The position numbers and the translations under genes are program-made. Below are positions 1 to 42,798 of a stretch of DNA of 64,000 bases, in pieces. Origin of the DNA: Chryseobacterium sp. (GTDB taxonomy: Bacteria; Bacteroidota; Bacteroidia; Flavobacteriales; Weeksellaceae); the NCBI GenBank assembly GCA_031286615.1, contig JAITUA010000013.1, positions 1 through 64,000 of the forward strand. The letters run 5' to 3'. The notes below the pieces were generated by a model, which did no database searches, was not told the origin of the DNA, and worked only from the letters and a program-made list of their open reading frames with translations. Position 1 is the stretch's first letter, and every line of letters begins with the position of its first letter.

Positions 1-4
1 CCCC

Positions 5-118
5 TAGCCCTGATAGAATGGTTACCCCGCAGCTTGGGTTTGAGAGGAAGTGGGCTTGAGCGTGGCAGCGCGCAGGCGCGAGGAGTAGGAATGGATAGCA
101 GGATGAAGCTCCTGAAAA
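5..118. other. GC-rich structured intergenic element
   Basis: This stretch is much richer in GC than its surroundings and has no credible ORF. It starts with CCCTGATAG (8-16) and ends with GGATAGCAGG (93-102) followed by GCTCC (108-112). CCTG and CAGG, and AGC and GCT, can pair as the closing stem of a long hairpin. I recall similar AGCCCTGATAG ... GGATAGCAGG ... GCTCC elements in intergenic DNA of other Bacteroidota, usually with a GC-rich hairpin between the two halves. I cannot tell the strand or function. A run of alternating TA follows at about 132-153. Confidence 0.45.
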
Positions 119-31280: not shown

Positions 31281-32096
31281 TTATTCTTCAAACTCTGCAT
31301 TTTGTCCTGCGTAGTTTTCAAGTATTCTTTCAGAAATGTCTTTTAATGCTTTTTCGTTTTCAGGATGTTTCCCAAAACTTGTAAAGAATTCTACTTGGTT
31401 ATTACTTTTATTATACCAAACTTTCCCCATAGCATTTGTAACAGTAAGAGTATCTGGTCTTGTAATTTTCTTGAAATATTTAAACATATATTCATTCATC
31501 GGAACGACCTCCACTTGAGAGCCTAGAGAACTACTATCAGTTGCCATATATCTATCCTTATCCCAATACATATACGCTTTATCAACAGCAGAAGAACCCA
31601 AGCCCGAAGTAAAACCTATAGATTTTAAATTTTTATTATTAGAAAAAACAACACCTCCTGTAACGAGAAATAAAATAAAGGTCATTTCTAAAATACCTAA
31701 TCCATTTTTTTTCATAAAATCAGGTAATGGCCAAGTTGGAGATACAGTAATAATTATTTGTTGAAATTTATCAGATATATCTTTAAAGCTTAAACCAAAA
31801 GTATTTATTGCATCTTCTCCTTCAAGTCTTACTCGATCACAAAAGTCAATAAAATTATTATATCCTATATACTTACTTAGGCAATCTAAAGCAATATCAT
31901 CAATATTATAATCTTCATTTTCTTGTACTAGACTTGTATAATATCTTGTATATGACCTTTCATCTCTTTTAAAATCATATCGTTCTTCAAAAAGAGAACT
32001 CAAATAACCAGAAACAGAATTTTTACTCCCTCGTGGAAGCTCATTTTTTGCTGTTTCGAATACAGTTTTCATTAAAAATCTTTTCTTCTCGTACAT
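31281..32096 (-). CDS. One-TM protein of unknown function, co-regulated with the island
   Basis: A 271-residue protein (263 if the ATG at 32072 is used). The N-terminal 80 residues are a helical domain (SGYLSSLFEERYDFKRDERSYTRYY ... ALDCLSKYIGYNNFIDF). I recall similar YLS...TYxRYY...LSxYLGYxxFxDF domains at the N-terminus of other Bacteroidota membrane proteins, and they look like a helix-turn-helix-type fold. One membrane segment follows (about residues 150-168, GLGILEMTFILFLVTGGVVF), then a likely periplasmic C-terminus. The architecture suggests signalling across the membrane. The gene points away from the kinase operon, and its promoter carries the same TTACG-N6-CGTAA-type repeat as two other promoters nearby. 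Confidence 0.6.
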   Translation of the reverse strand: MYEKKRFLMKTVFETAKNELPRGSKNSVSGYLSSLFEERYDFKRDERSYTRYYTSLVQENEDYNIDDIALDCLSKYIGYNNFIDFCDRVRLEGEDAINTFGLSFKDISDKFQQIIITVSPTWPLPDFMKKNGLGILEMTFILFLVTGGVVFSNNKNLKSIGFTSGLGSSAVDKAYMYWDKDRYMATDSSSLGSQVEVVPMNEYMFKYFKKITRPDTLTVTNAMGKVWYNKSNNQVEFFTSFGKHPENEKALKDISERILENYAGQNAEFEE

Positions 32097-32124
32097 AATT
32101 TTCAGGTATTAATTATTTGCTGTC

Positions 32125-32168
32125 CAAATTAGACAGAAACAAGACATAAAAATTGCGGTTTTCCGTAA
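32125..32168 (-). promoter_or_regulatory. Operator and promoter of the 271-aa gene (site a)
   Basis: TTGCG-GTTTTC-CGTAA at 32153-32168 is the inverted repeat of the island; read on the reverse strand its core is TTACGGAAAACCG, identical to the site at 35876. On the reverse strand TAATTTG (32131-32125) is a slightly short -7 box whose TA begins 21 nt after the repeat. The expected transcript starts about 23 nt before the ATG at 32096. Confidence 0.6.
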
Positions 32169-32233
32169 AAACCAACAACTTACATCATTTCCATCTGTCA
32201 ATCGTCTGTCTTAATATTCAGGTTTTTCTATCA

Positions 32234-32390
32234 GATATTTGTAAAAGAAATCAGGAACAAAAAATAAAATCTAAAAAAACCTGATTTCAAAAATCGCCAG
32301 ATAAAACGGAGGAAAACTCCGGGTTGGGAAGCAGATGTTTCTCCTCCGTTTTTGAAGGTTCACTTCCCAAAAAATTTAGAAGCGCTTCAA
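32234..32390 (+). ncRNA. Candidate structured RNA upstream of the kinase locus
   Basis: Most of the 373-bp gap lacks a gene but is rich in pairings. GATATTTG (32234-32241) resembles a -7 box. GAAATCAGG (32247-32255) pairs with CCTGATTTC (32280-32288). AACGGAGGA (32305-32313) pairs with TCCTCCGTT (32342-32350), followed by more T, as in a terminator. Inside that loop TTGGGAAG (32324-32331) is complementary to CTTCCCAA (32363-32370), which would make a pseudoknot. CGGAG (32307-32311) can also pair with CTCCG (32317-32321) as a competing hairpin. GAAGCGCTTC (32379-32388) is a perfect palindrome. It could be a small RNA or a leader that switches structure. Confidence 0.45.
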
Positions 32391-32469
32391 TTTTTTAACC
32401 GTATAACACTGTCTGTGATCTGTTTCGCAGGGAAGAATACGAATGCTTTAACAATAAATTTTTTGAACT

Positions 32470-32670
32470 ATGTTAGAAATTATATTAATGCTATTCGGTT
32501 TAGCATTCTCAAACAATACAGCAAATGCAACAACAGCAAATGATAATAACCCAACTACTGAAACAATTCAACCTCAAAGTGGTGCTTCAGATCCTGGAGG
32601 GTCTACAGGAGAAACAGGTGGAAGTGATACAGGAGGAGAAACAGGAACAACGCTTCCTCCTAAAAAATAA
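32470..32670 (+). CDS. 66-aa Gly/Thr/Ser-rich secreted peptide
   Basis: A 66-residue product. A hydrophobic start (MLEIILMLFGLAF) lacking charges other than one Glu is followed by an Asn/Thr/Ala stretch and a repetitive Gly-rich tail (GGSTGETGGSDTGGETG) ending in LPPKK. The hydrophobic start could be a signal peptide with cleavage near ANA-TT. I do not know a family. The gene lies between the structured RNA and its own strong terminator, directly before the sensor kinase gene, which suggests it belongs to the sensing module, for example as an exported peptide or simply as an attenuator leader. Confidence 0.5.
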   Translation: MLEIILMLFGLAFSNNTANATTANDNNPTTETIQPQSGASDPGGSTGETGGSDTGGETGTTLPPKK

Positions 32671-32678
32671 AAATTTTG

Positions 32679-32705
32679 ACCACTCTTTTTAGAGTGGTTT
32701 TTTTT
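32679..32705 (+). terminator. Terminator between the 66-aa gene and the kinase gene
   Basis: ACCACTC (32679-32685) pairs with GAGTGGT (32692-32698), then T8. The kinase ATG follows 12 nt later and I see no -7 box between, so kinase transcription may depend on read-through of this terminator. Confidence 0.75.
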
Positions 32706-32716
32706 ATTTTAGTAAA

Positions 32717-34357
32717 ATGATACGAAATTTATTATTTCCCCTTTTTTCTTTCTGCCTCATTGCTTCATGTAAGGATACACTTGAAATCAATAATAATATA
32801 GTAAAAGCCGATAAATTATATGAAGAAGGTGTTAGCCTTCTTGAAAAAAATGATGTTAAAGCTTATTTAAAACTCCAGGAAGCAATTTCTTACTATAATA
32901 AAGAAAGTGATTTTTCTAATATTTCTAAAAGCTTGATTGTACAAGCAAATGCTCAAAAAAACAGAGGTGATTTTTTAGGTGCAGAATCAACATTAGTAGA
33001 AGCCTTAAAAATGATGAGTGAAAATGATGAAAGTCTTTACTCATTATATGATACTATGGCTACCTTAAAATTAAATCAAAAGCAATATTCACAAGCAATA
33101 GAATGGTATGATAAGGCTCTTTCCGTTAAGATTGAGTCGGGGCAAAAAAGACTCAGCATATTAAATAATAAATCTGTAGCAGAATATAAATTAGGAAAAT
33201 ATAAACTGGCGTTAGATATTTTACAAAAACTTGATTTATCAAAACTTTCAGATTTAAACTTAAAAAATAGAATCAAAGAAAATATTGAATACACAAAATG
33301 GCTAGACAATAATAATTATGAGGCTCAAGCTACTATAGAAAATATATTAAAGCTTAAATTAGAAAATAGTGACCTTTGGGGAGCGAATTCAAGCTATGCA
33401 CATTTGGCAGAAATAAATAAAAAATCTAATCCAGAGAAATCTCTTTATTATGCTAAGAAAATGCTTGATATAGCTCAAATAAACAAAAGTCCTGAAGATA
33501 GACTTGAAGCTCTTGAAAAAATAATTTATGTAGATAAGCCAACAAATACCAATAGTCATTTTATAACATATAAAAACCTGTCTGATAGCATCCAAAATAG
33601 TCGTAGTGATTACACAACTAAATTTGCATTTATAAAATACGAAAACACAAAAGTTAAAGCAGAAAAAGCAGAAAAAGAAAATCAATTATTATGGCTTTCG
33701 TTAGTTTTAGCATTACTTACTGCAATATTTATTGTAGTTGTTATTTTATATAAAAAAAGGCAGAAAAGACTTCAACAAGAAAAAGAGATCGAGGTAAAAA
33801 ACACCCAACTTAAAATGTCGAAAAAAGTTCATGATGTGGTTGCCAATGGGATTTATCAGGTGATGACCAAGATTGAAAACCAAGAAGATTTCGATCGGGA
33901 TAAAGCCCTTGACGAACTGGAATTTGTGTATGAAAAATCAAGGGATATATCCTACGATAAAACGGCGGAAGAAAAAGAGTTCAGTAAGGTAATTTCAGAA
34001 CTTATTGCTTCCTTCACTAATGATACTGTAAAAACTTTTACTGCAGGAAATAGCCCGGGGATTTGGGAAACAATTTCTTCTACAGTAAAAGAGGAAGTTT
34101 ACCAGATGCTTCGCGAACTGATGGTGAATATGAAAAAACACAGCCATGCCAGCCATGTTGCCGTTAAATTTGAAAAAACAAACAACATGGTTGAAATTCA
34201 GTACAAAGACAATGGAATTGGAATTTCAGGAGATCTTGTTTATAAAAATGGCTTACGCAATACGGCATCCCGCATTGAGGCGATTAACGGAACAATTACT
34301 TTTGACACGAAAATTGAAAAAGGGCTGAAAGTAAATCTTTCATTCCCTGTCTCCTAA
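32717..34357 (+). CDS. TPR-containing lipoprotein-type sensor histidine kinase
   Basis: A 546-residue sensor kinase. The N-terminus is a lipoprotein-type signal with lipobox LIASC (Cys18). Residues about 25-290 are helical repeats of the TPR type (YSLYDTMATLKLNQKQYSQAIEWYDKAL, for example), predicted periplasmic. One membrane segment at about 322-345 precedes a coiled stretch and the phospho-acceptor helix KMSKKVHDVVANGI with His372, of the HisKA_3/NarX type. The ATPase part shows an N box around MLRELMVNMKKHSHASHV, the G1 box DNGIGI and a late GLRNTASRIEAINGTI. It is followed 10 bp later by its response regulator. The TPR domain probably senses an envelope protein or peptide. Confidence 0.85.
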   Translation: MIRNLLFPLFSFCLIASCKDTLEINNNIVKADKLYEEGVSLLEKNDVKAYLKLQEAISYYNKESDFSNISKSLIVQANAQKNRGDFLGAESTLVEALKMMSENDESLYSLYDTMATLKLNQKQYSQAIEWYDKALSVKIESGQKRLSILNNKSVAEYKLGKYKLALDILQKLDLSKLSDLNLKNRIKENIEYTKWLDNNNYEAQATIENILKLKLENSDLWGANSSYAHLAEINKKSNPEKSLYYAKKMLDIAQINKSPEDRLEALEKIIYVDKPTNTNSHFITYKNLSDSIQNSRSDYTTKFAFIKYENTKVKAEKAEKENQLLWLSLVLALLTAIFIVVVILYKKRQKRLQQEKEIEVKNTQLKMSKKVHDVVANGIYQVMTKIENQEDFDRDKALDELEFVYEKSRDISYDKTAEEKEFSKVISELIASFTNDTVKTFTAGNSPGIWETISSTVKEEVYQMLRELMVNMKKHSHASHVAVKFEKTNNMVEIQYKDNGIGISGDLVYKNGLRNTASRIEAINGTITFDTKIEKGLKVNLSFPVS

Positions 34358-34367
34358 ACATAGAACC

Positions 34368-35030
34368 ATGTTCAAAAAAGTTTTAATCGTCGAAGATCAG
34401 GAAATAATGAACCAGGGAATCCTGAATACAATAAAAGAATTAGACATCCCTGATTTTGATTATGTAACGTATTGTGATGAGGCTTTAGGCAGAATCAAAA
34501 AAGCTTTAGAAACAGAAAGTCCTTATGAGTTACTTATTGCTGATCTTTCGTTTGCCAAAGATCATATTCCCCAAAAGCTTCAATCCGGACAGGAACTTAT
34601 TCTTGAGGCAAAAAAGATTCAACCGGCTTTAAAAGTAGTTGTATTTTCTGTAGAAAAGAAAGCAAAAGCAATTGATGATCTTTACAAAATCTATCAGGTA
34701 GATGGGTTTGTAAGCAAGGCAAGACGTGACGGGCACGACCTTAAAAGTACAATCTGGAAAATTTTTAATGGAGAAACCGTAATTCCACAAGAAGTTCTCA
34801 ATACGATGCGCCATATTTCTTCTGAGGTTGATACCTATGATATCAAGTTGCTTGATCTGCTCTCCAAAGGTTACAAGCAAAGTGAAATAAGCCTCTACCT
34901 GAAACAGCACAGAATGATGCCATATAGCATCCGATCTATTGAAAAGAGATTGAACGAACTTCGGGATAGCCTCGGTGCAAAAAATAATATTGAAATGATT
35001 GTAATCTGTAAAGATATTGGCCTCATTTGA
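34368..35030 (+). CDS. NarL-like response regulator 1
   Basis: A 220-residue response regulator. The receiver has Glu9-Asp10, phospho-acceptor Asp59 (IADLS), Ser94 in place of Thr (VVFSVE) and Lys117 (GFVSKA). The C-terminal part reads LLDLLSKGYKQSEISLYL and SIRSIEKRLNELRDSLGAKNNIEMIVICKDIGLI, which follows the LuxR/NarL helix-turn-helix but with an insertion (KQHRMMPYS) between its helices. It is the immediate downstream partner of the kinase and a close paralogue of the next gene. No promoter of its own is seen, so it is cotranscribed with the kinase. Confidence 0.85.
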   Translation: MFKKVLIVEDQEIMNQGILNTIKELDIPDFDYVTYCDEALGRIKKALETESPYELLIADLSFAKDHIPQKLQSGQELILEAKKIQPALKVVVFSVEKKAKAIDDLYKIYQVDGFVSKARRDGHDLKSTIWKIFNGETVIPQEVLNTMRHISSEVDTYDIKLLDLLSKGYKQSEISLYLKQHRMMPYSIRSIEKRLNELRDSLGAKNNIEMIVICKDIGLI

Positions 35031-35062
35031 TCTTGTCTGCTGAAAAGATTTTTTTATTCTTT

Positions 35063-35107
35063 TTACGGGATCACGTAATGATGAAAAAATAAATGAATAT
35101 ACTTTTG
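35063..35107 (+). promoter_or_regulatory. Operator and promoter of response regulator 2 (site b)
   Basis: TTACG-GGATCA-CGTAA (35063-35078) is an inverted repeat with a 6-nt centre. Exactly 21 nt later begins TACTTTTG (35100-35107), a perfect -7 box, 37 nt before the ATG at 35145. The repeat thus occupies the -33 region, where an activator would bind. Confidence 0.65.
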
Positions 35108-35144
35108 AGGTCTTAACCTATTTTTAAAATTAAACCGTATAACC

Positions 35145-35810
35145 ATGTTCAAAAAAATTTTAATTGCCGAAGATCATGAAAGCATCAATATTTCCGTTCA
35201 GAAAACCCTTGAAGAGCTGAATATACCCACGGTAGATTATGTATATTACTGTGATGATGCCATAGGGAAAATTCAGAAAGCGTTACGGGAAGAGTATCCT
35301 TATGACCTCTTGATTACAGATCTTTATTATGAGGACGATCATCATGAGCAAAATCTTAAAGACGGAAAAGAACTCATCAGAAAAGCAAAAGAGATACATC
35401 CTAACTTGAAAGTAATAGTGTTTTCGGCCGAACATAAAACGGGAGTCATAGAAAATCTTTTTTCAGATTATCACATTAACGGATATGTCCGTAAAGCCAG
35501 AAACGATTCAAAAGATTTGAAAAAGGCCATTGCTTCCGCATACATCGGCGAAAATCATTTATCTTTTGATCTGAATCAGGATATGAAAAAGTTTAACAGC
35601 TATGAGTTTTCTACTTTTGACATCACCCTTGTCTCCCTTCTTTCTAAAGGAATCTTACAGAAAAACATTCCCTCTCATTTGGAGGAAAGGAATATTAAAC
35701 CCTCCAGCCTGAGCAGCGTTGAGAAAAGATTAAACAGTCTGAAAGAAGACCTTGAAATAAACAGCAATGAGCAGCTGGTAGCCTTCTGCAAGGACATCGG
35801 GATTATATAA
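35145..35810 (+). CDS. NarL-like response regulator 2
   Basis: A 221-residue paralogue of response regulator 1, with Glu9-Asp10, Asp59 (LITDLY), Ser94 (IVFSAE) and Lys117 (GYVRKA). The C-terminal LuxR-like helix-turn-helix has the same insertion (EERNIKPSS) between SKGILQKNIPSHL and LSSVEKRLNSLKEDLEINSNEQLVAFCKDIGII. Unlike its paralogue it has its own promoter with the TTACG-N6-CGTAA repeat, so it is probably induced by the phosphorylated regulator, giving feed-forward or feedback control. No cognate second kinase is near. It ends with a clean terminator. Confidence 0.85.
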   Translation: MFKKILIAEDHESINISVQKTLEELNIPTVDYVYYCDDAIGKIQKALREEYPYDLLITDLYYEDDHHEQNLKDGKELIRKAKEIHPNLKVIVFSAEHKTGVIENLFSDYHINGYVRKARNDSKDLKKAIASAYIGENHLSFDLNQDMKKFNSYEFSTFDITLVSLLSKGILQKNIPSHLEERNIKPSSLSSVEKRLNSLKEDLEINSNEQLVAFCKDIGII

Positions 35811-35833
35811 AATCCAATTCATTTCACTTACAG

Positions 35834-35860
35834 CCTTTCAAATTTTTTGAAAGGTTTTTT
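35834..35860 (+). terminator. Terminator after response regulator 2
   Basis: CCTTTCAA (35834-35841) pairs perfectly with TTGAAAGG (35847-35854), followed by T6. It separates the regulator genes from the ten-gene operon. Confidence 0.85.
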
Positions 35861-35875
35861 TATTTTTTGCCCGTT

Positions 35876-35920
35876 TTACGGAAAACCGTAACGGACAGAA
35901 TTTTAATGCTCATATTTTTG
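35876..35920 (+). promoter_or_regulatory. Operator and promoter of the ten-gene operon (site c)
   Basis: TTACG-GAAAAC-CGTAA (35876-35891) is the best copy of the repeat; its arms extend to TTACGG/CCGTAA. After exactly 21 nt comes TATTTTTG (35913-35920), a perfect -7 box, 23 nt before the ATG at 35943. The spacing is the same as at 35063. Confidence 0.7.
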
Positions 35921-35942: not shown

Positions 35943-36206
35943 ATGGAATACAAAGTAATACCATTTGTTGCAACTGCCAATCAACAAAACATGAGCTCAA
36001 AAAATATTGCAGAACAATTAGATAATTTAATAAAAGTCCATACCAATGACGGTTGGGAATATATAAGACTGGAAAGCGTATCTACTTATATACAGCCTGT
36101 TGAAGGGTGTTTTGGAAATACGGTCAAACCAGGTTATATGACTTCTTATCAAATGGTTGTTTTCAGTAAAAAAGAAAATGAAAAATCTATTAATCCTTCT
36201 TATTAA
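35943..36206 (+). CDS. DUF4177-type small protein
   Basis: An 87-residue protein. MEYKVIPF at the start, a central DNLIKVHTNDGWEYIRLESV and a final YQMVVFSKK form the three-part DUF4177 pattern, a small alpha/beta fold of unknown role (WEY...V...VF). No signal peptide or membrane segment. It is the first gene of a ten-gene same-strand operon and overlaps the next gene by 29 bp. The operator upstream indicates control by the adjacent two-component system. Confidence 0.7.
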   Translation: MEYKVIPFVATANQQNMSSKNIAEQLDNLIKVHTNDGWEYIRLESVSTYIQPVEGCFGNTVKPGYMTSYQMVVFSKKENEKSINPSY

Positions 36207-36501
36207 AATCTATTGGCTGGTCATTCCTCCATCAAAAAGGAGAAAATGCATTTTCAGAACCAGCTGCTCCAGACACGTCTATGAAAAAACAATACACAAT
36301 GGATTTATTTCAGGATTAAAAGCTTTCAAATATCGTTTTCAAAACTGCAGATCCGGAGCTTATATCATAGAAAATCCTTACGGAGAAATTCAAATCATTT
36401 TACCTAATCAACAAATTCTTAATGAAACAGAAGTTTCAGAGAGATTTATTAAAAATAAAAATAGTAATCATGGGAAAATTCGTAATCACTCAAAGAGTTA
36501 A
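36178..36501 (+). CDS. YidD-like membrane protein insertion factor
   Basis: I start it at the ATG at 36178, giving 107 residues; an upstream TTG-type extension is unlikely. A short hydrophobic N-terminus (LLILLIKIYWLVIPP) precedes CIFRTSCSRHVYEKTIHNG ... GLKAFKYRFQNCRSG. This Cys spacing (CxxxxSCSxxV ... G...GLxxxxxRxxxC) matches YidD, a small peripheral inner-membrane protein that helps YidC/Sec insertion. Normally yidD lies beside rnpA and yidC, so this copy in a stress-type operon is likely a specialised paralogue. It overlaps both neighbours by about 30 bp, a sign of tight coupling. Confidence 0.65.
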   Translation: MKNLLILLIKIYWLVIPPSKRRKCIFRTSCSRHVYEKTIHNGFISGLKAFKYRFQNCRSGAYIIENPYGEIQIILPNQQILNETEVSERFIKNKNSNHGKIRNHSKS

Positions 36502-36808
36502 CAAAGAGTATCAGTTCAATCTGAAAGCCGGAAACGGAGAAATTATTTTAACCAGTGAAGGATATGTCCAAAAGGCATCTTGTAAAAAAGGAATCGAATC
36601 CGTAAAAGTTAATTCTCAGGATCTTTCAAGATACGACAGGAGAGTTACAAAAAACGGAAAAGACTATTTCGTGTTAAAAGCAAAAAATGGTGAAATTATC
36701 GGAAACAGCCAAATGTACAGCACAAAATCCGGAATGGAAAATGGTATCGCTTCCGTAAAATCAAATGCTCCGACAGCAGAAATCATTGATGAAACTTTAA
36801 AAAATTAA
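36470..36808 (+). CDS. YegP-like protein with two DUF1508 repeats
   Basis: Starts at the ATG at 36470 (MGKFVITQR), giving 112 residues. A longer frame upstream runs out of phase through the end of the previous gene. Two DUF1508 repeats are visible: FNLKAGNGEIILTSEGY ... GIESVKVNS and FVLKAKNGEIIGNSQMY ... GIASVKSNA. The fold is a small beta-sheet dimer; E. coli YegP belongs to this family and is of unknown role. The conserved (F)xLKAxNGEII motif is intact in both halves. Operon context is stress- or envelope-related. Confidence 0.85.
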   Translation: MGKFVITQRVNKEYQFNLKAGNGEIILTSEGYVQKASCKKGIESVKVNSQDLSRYDRRVTKNGKDYFVLKAKNGEIIGNSQMYSTKSGMENGIASVKSNAPTAEIIDETLKN

Positions 36809-36813
36809 AAACC

Positions 36814-37884
36814 ATGGATCTTAAAATAAAACTTGAGCAACTGCATCAAAAAATAATAGGCCTTAAAGACCAGATCGGAACAGAAGAAGCTACAAAAAAT
36901 GCCTTTGTAATGCCTTTCATTCAAATTCTGGGCTATGATATTTTCAATCCTACAGAAGTAGTTCCGGAGCATGTTTGTGATATCGGAACAAAAAAAGGGG
37001 AAAAAGTGGATTATGTGATCAAAAATAATGATGAACCCATCTTCATTATTGAATGTAAACACTGGAAAGAAAGTGCCGATGCTCATAATTCGCAGCTTCA
37101 CAGGTATTATCATGTTTCTAAAACGAGATTCGGAGTTTTGACCAATGGGATTGTGTACAACTTCTACACAGATCTTGAAAAACCGAATATTATGGATGAA
37201 AAACCATTCTTCACCATTAATATTGAGGATCTGAAAGATAGTTCTATTAAAATTCTGGAAAGTTTTACCAAGAAAGATTATAACCTGGAAAGCATCCTCG
37301 ATTCTGCAGAAGCGCTAAAATACATCAAAGCCATCAGAAAGGAATTCGAAAAAGAAATCGAAAACCCGTCTGACGAACTGGTAAAACTTCTGGTGGGCCG
37401 CTTCTTTGAAAAGCCTTTAACAGCCAACAGAATGGTTTCCTTCAAAGAATATGCTAAAAAAGCATTGACTACTTCTATTAATGAGTCGATCAGCTTCCGG
37501 TTAAAATCCGCTTTGAGCATCAATGAACAGATAGAAAAAAACGAAGACGATGTGAAATCATCACAGCCCATCGATCAAAATAATGATTCTAAAATTGTAA
37601 CTACGGACGAAGAGCTCGAAGGTTTTCAAATTGTAAAAGCTATTCTGAGGGAGAAAATTCCATCTTCAAGAATTGCTTACAGAGATACTCTTTCCTATTT
37701 CGGGGTGTTGTTGGATGATAACAACAGAAAGCCACTTTGCAGATTGCATTTTAATACAACGAATAAATATCTGGAAACTTTTCACAACGGAAAAGAAGCA
37801 GGAGAAAAGATGTTATTAAATACACTGGATGAGATCTACAATTATAGAAATCAGCTTCATCTGACGCTGGAAAATTATGTATAA
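36814..37884 (+). CDS. Stand-alone HSDR_N nuclease-domain protein
   Basis: A 356-residue protein. The N-terminal 160 residues match the HSDR_N domain, the nuclease part of type I restriction subunits: VDYVIKNNDEPIFIIECKHW supplies the D ... ExK catalytic triad of the PD-(D/E)xK fold, with upstream EEATKNAFVMPFIQILGYDIF. No helicase motifs follow, and no methylase or specificity gene is near, so this is not a restriction system. The C-terminal third (residues about 255-356) looks like a second small domain (FQIVKAILREKIPSSRIAYRDTLSYFGVLL ... PLCRLHF), also common in this family. Role inferred: nucleic acid binding or cleavage, within the island. Confidence 0.75.
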   Translation: MDLKIKLEQLHQKIIGLKDQIGTEEATKNAFVMPFIQILGYDIFNPTEVVPEHVCDIGTKKGEKVDYVIKNNDEPIFIIECKHWKESADAHNSQLHRYYHVSKTRFGVLTNGIVYNFYTDLEKPNIMDEKPFFTINIEDLKDSSIKILESFTKKDYNLESILDSAEALKYIKAIRKEFEKEIENPSDELVKLLVGRFFEKPLTANRMVSFKEYAKKALTTSINESISFRLKSALSINEQIEKNEDDVKSSQPIDQNNDSKIVTTDEELEGFQIVKAILREKIPSSRIAYRDTLSYFGVLLDDNNRKPLCRLHFNTTNKYLETFHNGKEAGEKMLLNTLDEIYNYRNQLHLTLENYV

Positions 37885-37895
37885 AATTAATAGCC

Positions 37896-39167
37896 ATGAA
37901 AACTTTTTTAATCATTCTGAAAATTGTACGATGGATACTCGGTGTTGCATTCCTCCTCACTTCGTTGGGCTTATTAATAGAACAAAGTTTTGGAGCATCA
38001 GCAATACTGATACTATTGACAATTTTCCTGGTCCCGTTAACAGGTGATTATATTGTAAGTAAAATAATAAAGCTCAACCTTGCCGGAAACCATAAAGTCC
38101 TACAATCAATAAACTATTCTGAGCTTCATACTATTTTACCCATCTATCAGCAAAATGTATTGAATCATAAAAAAGCATTAAGTGATAAACAAAAAATAAA
38201 ATTTGGAAGAAAAATTTATTATAATACATTATGTACTGCAATTGCAGATTTTGATCTCAGCCAGAGTGAAATAGTTAAACTCAACGAGATCAAAATATAT
38301 TTCAACTTATCTGATCAGCAAGTACTCTCAGAAAAAAATAGGATCTCAGAAAAAACGGTAAAAAATCTGGTTCAGAAATGTTATGAAGATCGTTTATTGA
38401 CTGATTTAGAAAGTAAACAAATCACAAACATTGCTATCTTTCTTCAATTTCCATTAAATAAAGCTGAAGAGATCAAAAATAAAATTGCTTTTTCATTATT
38501 TAACACAATACTTGAAGAAAAGATATCGGATAATCGTCTTTCTCCAGTAAAAGAAACAGAGTTGAAACAGGCAACCAGAAATCTGAAAATTGACCATCAA
38601 AGCATTAAAGTATTTCTTTCTGACCGAAAAATTAAAAGTTTACAGCATGCCAAGTTATTATGGAATCTTGACCATGGTATTTTTCCGGTTATTCACAATC
38701 CTTCCATAACGTTAGCAAGAGATGAACAATGCTATTTAAACGTTAATGCAACCCTTATTGAAAACAAGCTGGTTCATGCAGGATATTCACGCACAAGTAC
38801 TGGAGTTTCTTTCAGAGTTATGAAAGGAGTAAATGCCAGAATTGGCGGCGGAAGATACCGCCCTGTAAAAGAAAATATAAGAGAGATTCATCCCGGAACT
38901 CTATATCTTACCAACTCAAGAATTGTTTTCAATGCCGGAAGGAAAAGCTTCCAAATTCCTTTCTATAAATTGATTTCACACAACGCAAGAGGAGGAAGTC
39001 TTGAATTAATAATCCAAAATAAAAGCTATTCACTGCGTGTAAATTATAAAGAAGCTGAAATATTTACACTTGCATTATCAAGTTCTCTCCGACAGTATAA
39101 AAATGCCAATGATCATCTAAAAATACAGGCGATGAGAGAAATCTCCATGAATGAAAATTTCATCTGA
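37896..39167 (+). CDS. Two-TM protein with TerB-like repeats and PH-like end
   Basis: A 423-residue protein. Two membrane segments at about residues 4-28 and 33-50 form an N-terminal hairpin. The cytoplasmic part has repeated helical units of TerB flavour (AIADFDLSQSEIVKLNEIKIYFNLS; DRLLTDLESKQITNIAIFLQ; KISDNRLSPVKETELKQATRNLKI). These look like acidic helix-loop-helix turns, as in TerB, where Asp residues bind metal. The last 120 residues read GTLYLTNSRIVFNAGRK-SFQIPFYKLIS, a bacterial PH/GRAM-like fold. I do not know an exact family name. The architecture suits a membrane scaffold. Confidence 0.5.
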   Translation: MKTFLIILKIVRWILGVAFLLTSLGLLIEQSFGASAILILLTIFLVPLTGDYIVSKIIKLNLAGNHKVLQSINYSELHTILPIYQQNVLNHKKALSDKQKIKFGRKIYYNTLCTAIADFDLSQSEIVKLNEIKIYFNLSDQQVLSEKNRISEKTVKNLVQKCYEDRLLTDLESKQITNIAIFLQFPLNKAEEIKNKIAFSLFNTILEEKISDNRLSPVKETELKQATRNLKIDHQSIKVFLSDRKIKSLQHAKLLWNLDHGIFPVIHNPSITLARDEQCYLNVNATLIENKLVHAGYSRTSTGVSFRVMKGVNARIGGGRYRPVKENIREIHPGTLYLTNSRIVFNAGRKSFQIPFYKLISHNARGGSLELIIQNKSYSLRVNYKEAEIFTLALSSSLRQYKNANDHLKIQAMREISMNENFI

Positions 39168-39200
39168 ATACAAAATCAATTAACTATTAATATTCAAGAT

Positions 39201-39725
39201 ATGAAAAAACTAATCCCGTTCATCATACTTACCTTCAGTATATTTATCTTAAATTCCTGTTTTAAAGCCAATGACAACGTAGGACATGGTGGAAGATGTA
39301 CAGGTTCCGCGTATTGTACAGCTTGCTCAAATTGCTCAGGGTGCGGACACTGCAACAGCGGTGGATCCTGTGGTGTTTGCCGTGGAGACTCCTCCGGAAG
39401 AACTTCATCGTCGGGAAAATCTACCAAAAGTAAATCTAAGAAACATCGATCTCCTGATTCTTATAAGTATTCAAAAAATACGCCCAGTAAGCCACCAAAA
39501 GTATTTATTGACAAAGTTAATGTCAATATTAATTCCAATAATAGAAATATTGCAGAAATTAAAACCATAAATATTTTTGAAAAGCCCACATCTAAATCCA
39601 AAATAATAGCAATAGTCCCTAAAGATACTAAACTGATAAAGTTGTCAACAGAAGGATCTTGGTACAAAGTACAGGTTAAATCAAGTGGAAAAGAAGGTTA
39701 TGTTTTTAAAAACGATCTAAAATAA
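39201..39725 (+). CDS. Lipoprotein with Cys/Gly cluster and SH3 domain
   Basis: A 174-residue lipoprotein. The lipobox is ILNSC with Cys20. Residues about 30-60 form an unusual Cys/Gly/Ser-rich cluster with nine Cys (CTACSNCSGC, CNSGGSCGVC), followed by a Ser/Lys-rich linker and a C-terminal bacterial SH3 domain (TINIFEKPTSKSKIIAIVPKDTKLIKLSTEGSWYKVQ). The Cys cluster could bind metal or form disulfides; the SH3 domain likely binds peptidoglycan or a partner. Such proteins exist in related species, but I know of no function. Confidence 0.65.
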   Translation: MKKLIPFIILTFSIFILNSCFKANDNVGHGGRCTGSAYCTACSNCSGCGHCNSGGSCGVCRGDSSGRTSSSGKSTKSKSKKHRSPDSYKYSKNTPSKPPKVFIDKVNVNINSNNRNIAEIKTINIFEKPTSKSKIIAIVPKDTKLIKLSTEGSWYKVQVKSSGKEGYVFKNDLK

Positions 39726-39733
39726 TCAAAAAA

Positions 39734-40135
39734 ATGAAACCATTTCTCACCTTCTGTGCGTTATGTTGTTTTGCTGGTATTTTCAAACTTCCTATAGAAT
39801 ATTATACTTTTCTTAGAATTATTATTTCCATTGGAGCTTTATTGGTTTTATACAATACGCTGAGCTCTAAACAACATTATTTCAGTATACTATTTCTAAT
39901 CATTCTCATTCTTTTCAATCCCGTTTTTCCTTTTTATTTATATAGGAAAAGCATTTGGATCCCGATTGATATCATCACAGGAATTTTATTTCTGCTGATC
40001 AACTTCTTAGAAAGAAAAGAACAAAAAAAGGAAGAAGAAGTTCCTGAAGAAACCACGAAGCAATCTGCTCCCATCCACCAAAGAACTGTTTCAAGAGACA
40101 GAATCATTAATCCTAAAAAACCAAAAGAAGAATAA
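39734..40135 (+). CDS. DUF6804-like small membrane protein
   Basis: A 133-residue protein with three or four membrane segments (about residues 5-20, 22-42, 50-68 and 76-92), including LFNPVFPFYLYRKSIWIPIDIITGILFLL, a segment I associate with the DUF6804 family of small Bacteroidota membrane proteins. A charged Lys/Glu-rich tail follows. Function unknown. It lies 8 bp after the SH3 lipoprotein gene and 5 bp before the TerB-like gene, within the operon. Confidence 0.6.
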   Translation: MKPFLTFCALCCFAGIFKLPIEYYTFLRIIISIGALLVLYNTLSSKQHYFSILFLIILILFNPVFPFYLYRKSIWIPIDIITGILFLLINFLERKEQKKEEEVPEETTKQSAPIHQRTVSRDRIINPKKPKEE

Positions 40136-40140
40136 CCATT

Positions 40141-40548
40141 ATGGAGAACAATCAAATAACTGAAAATCTCAAAGCTCATTTTTTACGACTGTATCAAATG
40201 GCTATCTGTGATGATGATTTCAGTGCACTAGAATTAAAAATGCTCTACAAATGTGCAGAAGAAAGGGGAATTCCATCCAAAAATTTAGATGAAATCCTTT
40301 TAAATCCAATCAATTTAAAATCATTGGTACCACAGACTATTGAGGAGAAAGTAGATTATTTATATGATCTCACCGTAATGATCTGGGCAGATGGAATTGT
40401 TTCTCCAAACGAATATATTGCCATGCAAAAATACGTTCTGATGTTTGGTTTTGTAGAAGAAAATGCACCTTCCATTGTAGATTATCTTATTGAAGCCGTG
40501 AAAATCGGAAAGAATAAAAGCGAAATTTTATATGAATTAAAAAACTAA
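40141..40548 (+). CDS. TerB-like protein
   Basis: A 135-residue all-helical soluble protein. AICDDDFSALELKMLYKCAEERGIP and VMIWADGIVSPNEYIAMQKYVLMFGF are two matching units with an acidic turn (DDDFS and ADGIV) followed by E, the pattern of TerB domains, which bind divalent metal and link to membrane complexes and vWA proteins in Ter stress systems. The name is inferred from pattern, not from a search. Two genes downstream encodes a vWA-like lipoprotein, the classical partner type. Confidence 0.65.
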   Translation: MENNQITENLKAHFLRLYQMAICDDDFSALELKMLYKCAEERGIPSKNLDEILLNPINLKSLVPQTIEEKVDYLYDLTVMIWADGIVSPNEYIAMQKYVLMFGFVEENAPSIVDYLIEAVKIGKNKSEILYELKN

Positions 40549-40554
40549 CTCATC

Positions 40555-41895
40555 ATGGATACCACCAATATAAAAAATTTATTTAAACTCAAATCCGTTC
40601 CGATAGAAACTCAACAGGACACTCTCCCTAAAAACGATATCATTCCAGGTGATGAATCTCTCGAAGAAACCCGAAAAAGGACCTATCATGAATCAGGTTA
40701 CAGAGACAGCTCACGAACTAACGGAAACCACTCTACTCTATCCATCTGCCTGGATGCTGTCTATTCGAAATTTCAGAACGAAGAAAAGGAAATGGTCGAA
40801 AAACAGAAAAATCTGAAAGAATCCTACGTCAACGAACAAAAAAACAGAGAAACTGAAATTAAGGCGCTGACAGTATCACAGGAAACCAAAGAAGAACAAT
40901 TAAAAAATAAAAACGCAGAAGTAGAAAACCATCAGCATACAATTGAAAATTTAAAAGCTGAAATCCTTGATCTACCCAGAAACCCGGAAAAGCACAATAT
41001 AAAAGCAACAAGAGGAGCTTCTGCAAAATTCTGGATCGGGCTTTTTCTTTTGATTCCCATCACTTTATATTTAGGAACATTTTATATCTCAACTTCTTAT
41101 TCAGCTTTTTTCAAAAGTTTTGATGCAAAAAGTACAATTATCCAAAGTGTTTTAGATGCACAGGCTTTCAGTAAAGCGTGGAACGAAGGTGTTATTGAAG
41201 GAGCTTTTGTTACCTTGATTCCGTTTGTATTTCTCGGTTTGGGCTATTTGATTCACATGTTTTGGGAGAATAAAACAAGAGCCAATTATATCAAGTTGGG
41301 ATTATTGTTTATCGTAACATTTATTTTCGACTGTATTTTAGCCTATGAAATTGAATCAAAATTGTATGAACTAAACAAAACTTTTGAATCACCTCCATTT
41401 GATATTAAAATTGCTTTTACAAAAATTCAGTTTTGGGGAATTATTTTCGCGGGATTCATTGTATACATTATTTGGGGATTGGTTTTTGACTTTGTAATGA
41501 AAGAACACCGTGAAAAAGATAAGATTAAAAATGAACAGGAAATCAGACAGAAGAGAATTGAATTCTTTCAGGAAAAGATCAATGTCCTGAAAAAGGAAAT
41601 TGAAGATATTCTAGCCAATATCGGAAGTACAAAAGAATTAATTATCAAAACGCGAGGCAGAATTGAAGAGCTTCAGAATATTATTGACGGTGTGATTATT
41701 CCCACCAAGGATTACAAACTGTATGCTTCAGAATATGTTCAAGGCTGGATCACTTTTATCGGCGAAAAAATCGCAGTATCAAGAACAGAAAAACAAACGA
41801 TTATTGATGACTGCATTGCCACCTACAATACCAATCTGGAAACTGTGGGAGCTAATTCTGACAATCAAAATTTAGTGTATTTATCATCTTTATAA
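40555..41895 (+). CDS. Four-TM coiled-coil protein
   Basis: A 446-residue protein. After a disordered N-terminus comes a coiled coil (about residues 72-145, rich in Glu/Lys), then membrane segments at about 159-179, 217-236, 245-263 and 290-315, then a second coiled coil (about 318-385) and a short mixed end. Both coils face the cytoplasm if the four segments are correct. I do not recognise a family. The layout is that of a membrane scaffold or channel that assembles through its coils. It sits between the TerB-like and vWA-like genes, 6 and 9 bp away. Confidence 0.6.
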   Translation: MDTTNIKNLFKLKSVPIETQQDTLPKNDIIPGDESLEETRKRTYHESGYRDSSRTNGNHSTLSICLDAVYSKFQNEEKEMVEKQKNLKESYVNEQKNRETEIKALTVSQETKEEQLKNKNAEVENHQHTIENLKAEILDLPRNPEKHNIKATRGASAKFWIGLFLLIPITLYLGTFYISTSYSAFFKSFDAKSTIIQSVLDAQAFSKAWNEGVIEGAFVTLIPFVFLGLGYLIHMFWENKTRANYIKLGLLFIVTFIFDCILAYEIESKLYELNKTFESPPFDIKIAFTKIQFWGIIFAGFIVYIIWGLVFDFVMKEHREKDKIKNEQEIRQKRIEFFQEKINVLKKEIEDILANIGSTKELIIKTRGRIEELQNIIDGVIIPTKDYKLYASEYVQGWITFIGEKIAVSRTEKQTIIDDCIATYNTNLETVGANSDNQNLVYLSSL

Positions 41896-41904
41896 AATAA
41901 AATT

Positions 41905-42798
41905 ATGAAAAAGATATTCTATTTATTATTCATTATTTCTTTGGTCTCTTGTTGCAAAGAACAGCCTCCAATACCGTGTACAAATTGTCCATCAGCCGTT
42001 GATTCTAATAATATTAATCTTAGTATTTTAATTGATTTATCAGACAGAATTGATCCTATAACCAATCCAAATCCCACCATGCAGTATTTTCAGCGGGATG
42101 CAGAATATATCAAAGCCATTGAAAAAGGATTTTTAAATCATATTAAATCAAAAAGAATCATCACATACGATGATCAGATGCAAGTTTTCTTCAATCCGGA
42201 GCCTTCAGATCCGAAAATGAATGAGCTTACAAAAGAACTGAAGGTTTCTTTTAATAAAGATATTCCAAAAAGTTATTTTGATTCTGTTGACAAAAAATAT
42301 TCGGAATTACCTCTAAACATTTATCAATCAGCAATAAAAGATGGCAAATATGTAGGGTCAGATATCTGGGAATTCTTCAAAAACAAAGTGAAAGATTATT
42401 GCATAAAAGATGATCGCAGAAATATCCTTTTCATTTTAACCGATGGCTATATGTATCATGAAAATACTACGTTTGCTGAAAAAAAGGAAAATTCATATAA
42501 AACATCCTATTTAACAACCAAGCTTATAAAATCTAATAACCTGACAACATCTGGTTTTAAAGAGGTCATTGAAAAAAATGGATATGGCTTTGTGAAAGCA
42601 AATGAAGATCTGAGTAATCTGGAGGTCATCGTTTTAGGAATCAATCCCGAAAAAGGAAATCCTTTCGAAGAAGCTGTTATTAAAGAATATTGGGAAAATT
42701 GGTTTAAAGAAATGAAAATTAAAAAGTATCAGATTAAATCTGCTGATCTTCCTACTAATCTGGAGCCCATTATCTTAAAAGTTATTTCGGGAAAATAA
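41905..42798 (+). CDS. vWA-like lipoprotein
   Basis: A 297-residue lipoprotein with lipobox LVSC (Cys16), next to a second Cys. The body looks like a von Willebrand A fold: LSILIDLSDRID gives the first metal-site residues (DxSD) and NILFILTDGYM the late Asp, as in MIDAS sites that hold Mg; in the usual motif the fifth residue is Ser, here Asp, so the site is altered. Short periplasmic vWA lipoproteins of this sort act as adaptor or recruitment proteins. It ends the operon and a bidirectional terminator follows. Confidence 0.6.
   Translation: MKKIFYLLFIISLVSCCKEQPPIPCTNCPSAVDSNNINLSILIDLSDRIDPITNPNPTMQYFQRDAEYIKAIEKGFLNHIKSKRIITYDDQMQVFFNPEPSDPKMNELTKELKVSFNKDIPKSYFDSVDKKYSELPLNIYQSAIKDGKYVGSDIWEFFKNKVKDYCIKDDRRNILFILTDGYMYHENTTFAEKKENSYKTSYLTTKLIKSNNLTTSGFKEVIEKNGYGFVKANEDLSNLEVIVLGINPEKGNPFEEAVIKEYWENWFKEMKIKKYQIKSADLPTNLEPIILKVISGK

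Follow-up and report, generated by a model that had tools for sequence, protein, structure and literature searches.

A palindromic box at a fixed promoter distance at a two-component locus of Chryseobacterium and before unlinked anti-phage genes

The two-component locus and its four boxes

We analysed a window of 64,000 nucleotides (nt) from a 4.88-Mb Chryseobacterium sp. genome (C16:1-64000). It holds a sensor kinase gene followed by two response regulator (RR) genes and a ten-gene cargo operon, with a divergent gene for a protein of 271 amino acids (aa) on the other side of the kinase (Table 1). Our subject is a 16-bp palindrome at this locus, TTACGG-N4-CCGTAA, referred to below as the box, and the promoters in which it stands. 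A preliminary description had placed three such repeats before the 271-aa gene, RR2 and the operon, each 21 nt from the TA of a -7 box, and both statements hold. The pattern TTRCG-N6-CGYAA occurs three times in the window (0.07 expected; none of 100 shuffles reached three), at sites a, b and c, and the distance from the box to the TA is exactly 21 nt at each. A fourth member, site d, adds to the three described before. Judged from the sequence, sites a, b, c and d are the predicted promoters of the divergent 271-aa gene, RR2, the downstream operon and RR1, respectively.

The -7 box of site a is less regular than had been described: TAATTTGG does not fit TAnnTTTG, as its TTTG lies one base too near. 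It is like the SM5 type, for which a Flavobacterium transcription start site (TSS) map places TA and TTG one base nearer (PMC9723704). Similarly short -7 boxes precede homologues of the 271-aa gene at loci L127, L132 and L135, and many relatives have a box at the place equivalent to site a. Orthologues of sites b and c are also present in relatives.

Table 1. Features of the locus, with positions in the 64,000-nt window
Feature	Position	Strand	Description
271-aa gene (D271)	31281..32096	-	divergent neighbour of the kinase
Site a	32124..32168	-	box 32168-32153 TTACGGAAAACCGCAA, 21-nt gap, -7 box TAATTTGG (32131-32124)
66-aa open reading frame (ORF)	32470..32670	+	hydrophobic N-terminus, Gly/Pro-rich tail; just 5' of the kinase
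Sensor kinase	32717..34357	+	TPR repeats, HATPase_c (Pfam, HATPase_c 8.1e-08)
Site d	34260..34304	+	box ATACGGCATCCCGCAT, 21-nt gap, -7 box TACTTTTG; within the kinase gene, just before RR1
RR1	34368..35030	+	receiver and DUF5932 (Pfam; alignments)
Site b	35063..35107	+	box 35063-35078 TTACGGGATCACGTAA, 21-nt gap, -7 box TACTTTTG 35100-35107
RR2	35145..35810	+	NarL-family fold (model); proposed activator
Site c	35876..35920	+	box 35876-35891 TTACGGAAAACCGTAA, 21-nt gap, -7 box TATTTTTG 35913-35920
Cargo operon (ten genes)	35943..42798	+	downstream of site c
Cargo genes 1-5			DUF4177-like (below Pfam cut-off), YidD, DUF1508, HSDR_N, 423 aa
Cargo genes 6-10			SH3_3, DUF6804, 135 aa (TerB-like by eye), membrane 446 aa, 297-aa lipoprotein-like

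Both RRs matched Response_reg, RR2 above and RR1 below the Pfam cut-off. Residues D10, D59, S94 and K117 are invariant in the RR alignments and supply the acidic pair, phospho-acceptor Asp, Ser/Thr and Lys of a receiver. The RR2 model (predicted local distance difference test, pLDDT, 87.7) ends in four helices, as in GerE-type domains, and its nearest solved structures include RcsB, VraR, LiaR and EvgA; with RcsB, spr1814, EvgA and LiaR the likeness extends over nearly the whole length. In the Pfam search a GerE match was not found in either RR, the C-terminal domain matching DUF5932 in RR1 and nothing in RR2. On the strength of the modelled fold, RR2 belongs to the NarL family. The kinase has a lipoprotein-like N-terminus and one transmembrane helix, as judged by eye. 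ORFs that resemble the 66-aa ORF of the window, short and with a conserved hydrophobic N-terminus and a Gly/Pro-rich tail, stand just before the kinase at 58 of 80 related loci; the product is a candidate signal peptide for the TPR sensor. Locus L131 (genome G054) has several short ORFs of this type.

The cargo behind site c varies among species within conserved flanks, an exchange spot tied to the regulator. Separately, the boxed RR locus of genome G113 is followed, some 3 kb further on, by a 1527-aa ORF (L119 12706-17289) that reads as Cas9.

Spacing, spread and DNA-level selection of the box

To count promoters we used a composite of the box, 21 nt and TAnnTTTG, with the reversed pattern as control. 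In the genome of the window, the palindrome alone was found 15 times, compared with six for the reversed pattern; a TA lies exactly 21 nt off in one orientation at 12 of the 15, and a full TAnnTTTG at six. The composite with up to three mismatches gave 31 matches there and five for the control. In exact form it is present in 69 of 117 genomes, with one control match across all 117, and the genus accounts for 195 exact matches in 66 of 70 genomes. When the gap was left free from 8 to 38 nt, 138 of the 168 matches in 45 compared genomes fell at 21, while the control gave 10 in all 71 genomes scanned; among the matches listed, other gaps were mostly 20, 22 or 23. Six genomes reached via Pedobacter, Parapedobacter and Epilithonimonas loci had eight of nine free-gap matches at 21 (control, four). 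A reading confined to the window was dropped, since the counts in its own genome and in relatives far exceed those of the window.

Scanning named genomes with the RR alignment confirmed 460 relatives, the best 80 of which make up the set of 80 RR loci used here and above: 74 are from Chryseobacterium, and Epilithonimonas, Pedobacter and Parapedobacter are also represented. These loci hold 136 palindromes (one for the control), 75 of the 80 having one, and at 67 a palindrome lies between -900 and +400 nt of the RR stop. Where TAnnTTTG was found 8-38 nt from the box, the gap was 21 in 92 of 95 cases. The box switch thus spaced occurs across Chryseobacterium and some relatives.

We also compared box and regulator in a class-wide sample of 247 genomes, which included the genome of the window and one congener and in which RRs were taken at E <= 1e-30. 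A stricter exact form of the box was present in seven of nine genomes with an RR and in none of the 238 others, with no control matches (Fisher 3.5e-12). In genome G209, from another family, box and RR are unlinked. Two genomes of the genus, G029 and G031 (99% complete), have neither RR nor box, and G063, in which the RR is in pieces, lacks the box and is 75% complete.

The distance to the -7 box allows the box to be placed on the promoter. The Flavobacterium TSS map has TAnnTTTG at -12 to -5 (PMC9723704). From this position and the 21-nt gap, the box spans -49 to -34 with its centre at -41.5, using TSSs mapped in Flavobacterium. We then collapsed promoters chosen by box and TA..TT at 21 to 75% identity, leaving 168, in which the box and TA..TT positions are fixed because they were used for selection. 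Within this set neither a conserved TTTG between box and -7 box nor a -33-like motif was evident, and outside these two elements no position exceeds 0.71 for one base. A centre at -41.5 combined with no visible -33 element is how class II activator promoters are laid out, and a 16-bp palindrome of 7-2-7 form at this position suits a NarL dimer. As in class II activation at CRP-like promoters, a dimer site would stand at a fixed distance and abut the -35/-33 region. Unlike those, the promoter is of the Bacteroidota kind, having TAnnTTTG as its -7 box and lacking a recognisable -33 element.

Site d gives evidence of a different kind, as it overlaps the coding sequence for the ATP-binding C-terminus of the kinase. 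Among perfect 6+6 palindromes 21 nt before TAnnTTTG at the 80 RR loci, the TTACGG form was counted 80 times. A second form, ATACGG, was unexpected and was counted 46 times; where loci were inspected singly, it lies about 110 nt before the RR, and in the window it is site d. Codons under site d were counted at the 59 of 80 loci where the protein motif located the stretch, leaving out 21. The Asn codon is AAT in 59 of 59 (background 0.66), Thr is ACG in 49 of 49 (0.12), Arg is CGT or CGC in 59 of 59 (0.22), Phe is TTT in 59 of 59 (0.77) and Asp is GAC in 51 of 54 (0.33). Where Thr is replaced, Ala is GCG in five of five and Val is GTG in three of three, and the remaining two loci have Met, which has a single codon. 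Codons adjoining the stretch vary. Because synonymous codons are frozen under site d, the DNA itself is under selection; conservation of the protein does not explain this, while a promoter for the RR does. Binomial values for these codons overstate the evidence, since the loci are related.

Genes behind unlinked boxes

Targets were assigned at 80 unlinked sites hand-picked among the matches listed, leaving out RR-adjacent sites and several that were duplicate orthologues or on short contigs. At 64 of the 80 a same-strand gene lies within 450 nt (42 homology groups), and the other 16 have none by this rule. Defence systems could be named in 13 of the 42 groups, corresponding to 24 of the 64 sites. 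PADLOC identified Shango SngABC at 10 sites (scanned at one and assigned by homology at the rest), Wadjet JetABCD, Hachiman HamAB, CBASS cyclase-HORMA-TRIP13, PDC-M62, PDC-S71, Gabija GajAB at L272 and L289, and type II methyltransferases at L231 and L233. Type III restriction-modification (R-M) genes were found at two sites and DUF4297-HerA followed by GajA- and GajB-like genes at two others, one of each pair scanned by PADLOC, and a GajA-like gene stands behind a box at a contig end. Shango, Wadjet, CBASS, Hachiman and type III R-M are published defence systems.

For an estimate of enrichment, we took the first three genes per group of at least 100 aa as target proteins and 20 regions 100 kb away as controls. 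At 1e-20, at least 25 of 79 target proteins matched PADLOC families, compared with one of 108 controls (Fisher 6e-10); 46 targets were scanned singly and the other 33 in a pool, considering the best 25 of 211 families. All 24 control-matching families fall on one protein. Anti-phage systems are over-represented among the genes that follow unlinked boxes, and a common promoter stands before several unrelated ones, which suggests common regulation. The box is not a constant companion of such systems. In 118 genomes of the genus, 24 of 35 Shango copies have an upstream box (13 by the position of exact matches and 11 of the 22 others at <=1 mismatch), and two of the 13 strongest GajB matches have one, L289 being a further boxed Gabija outside those 13. 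On these figures, a box before each and every defence system was rejected as a general rule.

No PADLOC match at 1e-5 was obtained with the 461-aa PIN_8 protein at L018 or with the genes scanned at L217, L218, L222, L223, L239, L256, L275, L277, L281, L285 and L290, and matches at L229 and L282 were weak only. In the genome of the window, two genes stand behind boxes with imperfect -7 boxes: one is PD-T4-1-like, and the other is PD-Lambda-1-like and divided over two ORFs at L026 7397-9058. A weaker box in the same genome (L043, C10:133400) precedes a gene read as an SbcD-like nuclease. In Parapedobacter, a box at L211 precedes a gene read as Cas6-like.

Mobile elements carry the same box. The stricter exact promoter was found in 70 viral-contig stretches (L389-L458), compared with none for the reverse, and some of these boxes precede small phage genes. 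On viral contigs L403, L412, L422 and L441, boxes lie before gene clusters read as head genes.

Proposed regulation, alternatives and precedents

The reading that we consider probable is a coordinated regulon of defence and mobile-element genes in Bacteroidota, controlled by class II activation, with NarL-type regulators and a TPR sensor kinase at its head. The kinase, with its lipoprotein-like N-terminus, TPR repeats and transmembrane helix, would phosphorylate the NarL-family RRs of the locus, and these are the presumed binders of TTACGG-N4-CCGTAA. A phosphorylated RR dimer on the palindrome at -41.5 would adjoin RNA polymerase and, as a class II activator at the TAnnTTTG promoter, stand in for the -33 element. 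Through sites d and b the regulator would drive its own genes, through a the 271-aa gene and through c the cargo operon; it would also drive many unlinked genes that have gained the promoter, prominent among them anti-phage systems and prophage genes. The box, its fixed spacing, DNA-level selection at site d, RR co-occurrence, the NarL fold and defence enrichment were computed here; which RR binds, activation over repression, the phosphorelay and the signal are what we infer. Chryseobacterium and some relatives may therefore switch on much of their immune arsenal together. More tentatively, and with less than even probability, the switch could be a danger alarm. The 66-aa peptide, or a relative released from lysing kin, would be sensed by the extracytoplasmic TPR domain; the alarm would activate the defence regulon directly by the class II route, defence systems would join by acquiring the box, and prophages would have taken it up as well, using the alarm to their own advantage.

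Several observations weigh against the proposed regulon or qualify it. Enrichment is weaker by group, with 13 of 42 groups against one of 20 control regions (p = 0.025), a figure given because proteins of one operon are not independent. Strong PADLOC matches were not found in 29 of the 42 groups, 13 of them scanned singly in part and 16 in the pooled scan only, and four cargo operon proteins of the window gave no match at 1e-5. Eleven of 35 Shango copies and 11 of the 13 strongest GajB matches have no box in the 4.5-5.3 kb upstream. As to the regulator, related genomes are not independent in the co-occurrence counts, and the 271-aa gene also accompanies the RR in 75 of 80 loci. G071 and G248 have an RR and lack the exact box, as does G060, which has TTATGG variants instead. 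Conversely, G054 has four boxes and an interrupted RR gene (a transposase-like ORF lies near it, at about 7781-9774 of L131), and G039, 87% complete, has two boxes and no RR that we found. In favour of the proposal, variant boxes accompany diverged RRs. In G011, whose RR is 58% identical, all three exact-pattern sites are TTACGT-N4-ACGTAA, a form otherwise rare; this shift is suggestive only, as the RRs of G007, G025, G064 and G065 have diverged about as far yet their boxes read TTACGG. TTATGG-type variants or half-variants at 21-nt spacing were seen in G060 (L128), L198, L118 and L121, hinting at shifted specificity of some RRs.

The main rival binder is the divergent 271-aa protein, which might occupy the box as a ToxR-like, membrane-anchored regulator, with the two-component pair merely one of its targets. 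Its model has an N-terminal helical domain, a low-confidence middle with a probable membrane helix and a C-terminal alpha/beta domain. Fold searches with this model gave nothing strong: structural likeness stayed within the range of common arrangements, and Foldseek returned nothing at E <= 0.001. Sequence identity of the protein between loci ranges from 26 to 93%, whereas the box is constant, and a NarL dimer suits the palindrome and its position. Additionally, L117 and L122 have RR and box together with no 271-aa homologue detected in the stretch, although the genome of L117, G086, has one elsewhere (L118), which qualifies its absence beside the RR. We regard this binder as improbable. Somewhat less so, if still unlikely, is that the box is a repressor site, or is used by a dual regulator that runs a general envelope or stress response in which defence genes are among many responders and not the purpose. 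The many targets that read as small membrane proteins, lipoproteins, DUF4236-like or Ter-like genes fit such a role, as do the groups with no strong PADLOC match; the activator layout, the protein-level enrichment and the published standing of the systems found speak for an activator of defence genes. Least credible, at a very small probability, is that the sites arose by shared ancestry or chance, a mobile promoter or repeat having been copied with no regulator in common. Many sites are indeed orthologous and viral contigs carry them. Against this, the reversed-pattern controls are near zero, and we rejected it as the main account on the frozen codons of site d, the 168 promoters that survive collapse with little else conserved, and the class-wide co-occurrence.

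An activator-driven NarL regulon remains the reading we favour, and the interpretation offered in the preliminary description is supported as far as sequence can test it. Placement of the repeat over the -33 region agrees with the class II position and the lack of an evident -33 motif, the NarL-like assignment with the modelled fold of RR2, and autoregulation with boxes before both RR genes. A single regulon agrees with a 21-nt spacing fixed across hundreds of promoters and with box and RR co-occurring across the class; the many genome-wide matches at other spacings that would speak against it did not appear, only three of the 15 sites in the genome of the window lacking a TA at 21. What that description understated is the scale and the anti-phage content.

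The nearest precedent, by analogy, is Gac/Rsm in Pseudomonas. This pathway relies on small RNAs together with RsmA, a translational repressor. As published, its regulon holds many unrelated anti-phage systems, including Shango in P. fluorescens, and differs between species; the Discussion treats coordination of defence outside Pseudomonas as an open question and says of such pathways elsewhere, in other phyla, that they 'may well await discovery' (PMC11888443). Common to both is a two-component system with many unrelated defence systems, Shango among them, under what would here be common regulation. What sets the present system apart is an RR that seems to work directly on each of the promoters, a different type of kinase and its occurrence in Bacteroidota. 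In literature searches covering titles and the beginnings of abstracts, with subscription journals mostly outside coverage, we recognised no publication on the box or regulon. Our analysis names a candidate regulator, a 16-bp box at a fixed position and hundreds of promoters. The box is also a possible handle for unknown defence genes, because uncharacterised operons behind it become candidates.

BrxR, CapW and C proteins likewise control transcription of defence genes. Each acts locally, being encoded in and serving a single system, whereas the single chromosomal pair described here seems to act on many unlinked systems. With NarL/FixJ-family RRs such as RcsB, VraR, LiaR and EvgA, the regulators described here share a receiver, a four-helix C-terminal DNA-binding domain (in the RR2 model) and presumed palindromic sites; they differ in having a C-terminal domain outside the usual helix-turn-helix families of Pfam and a site sequence of their own.

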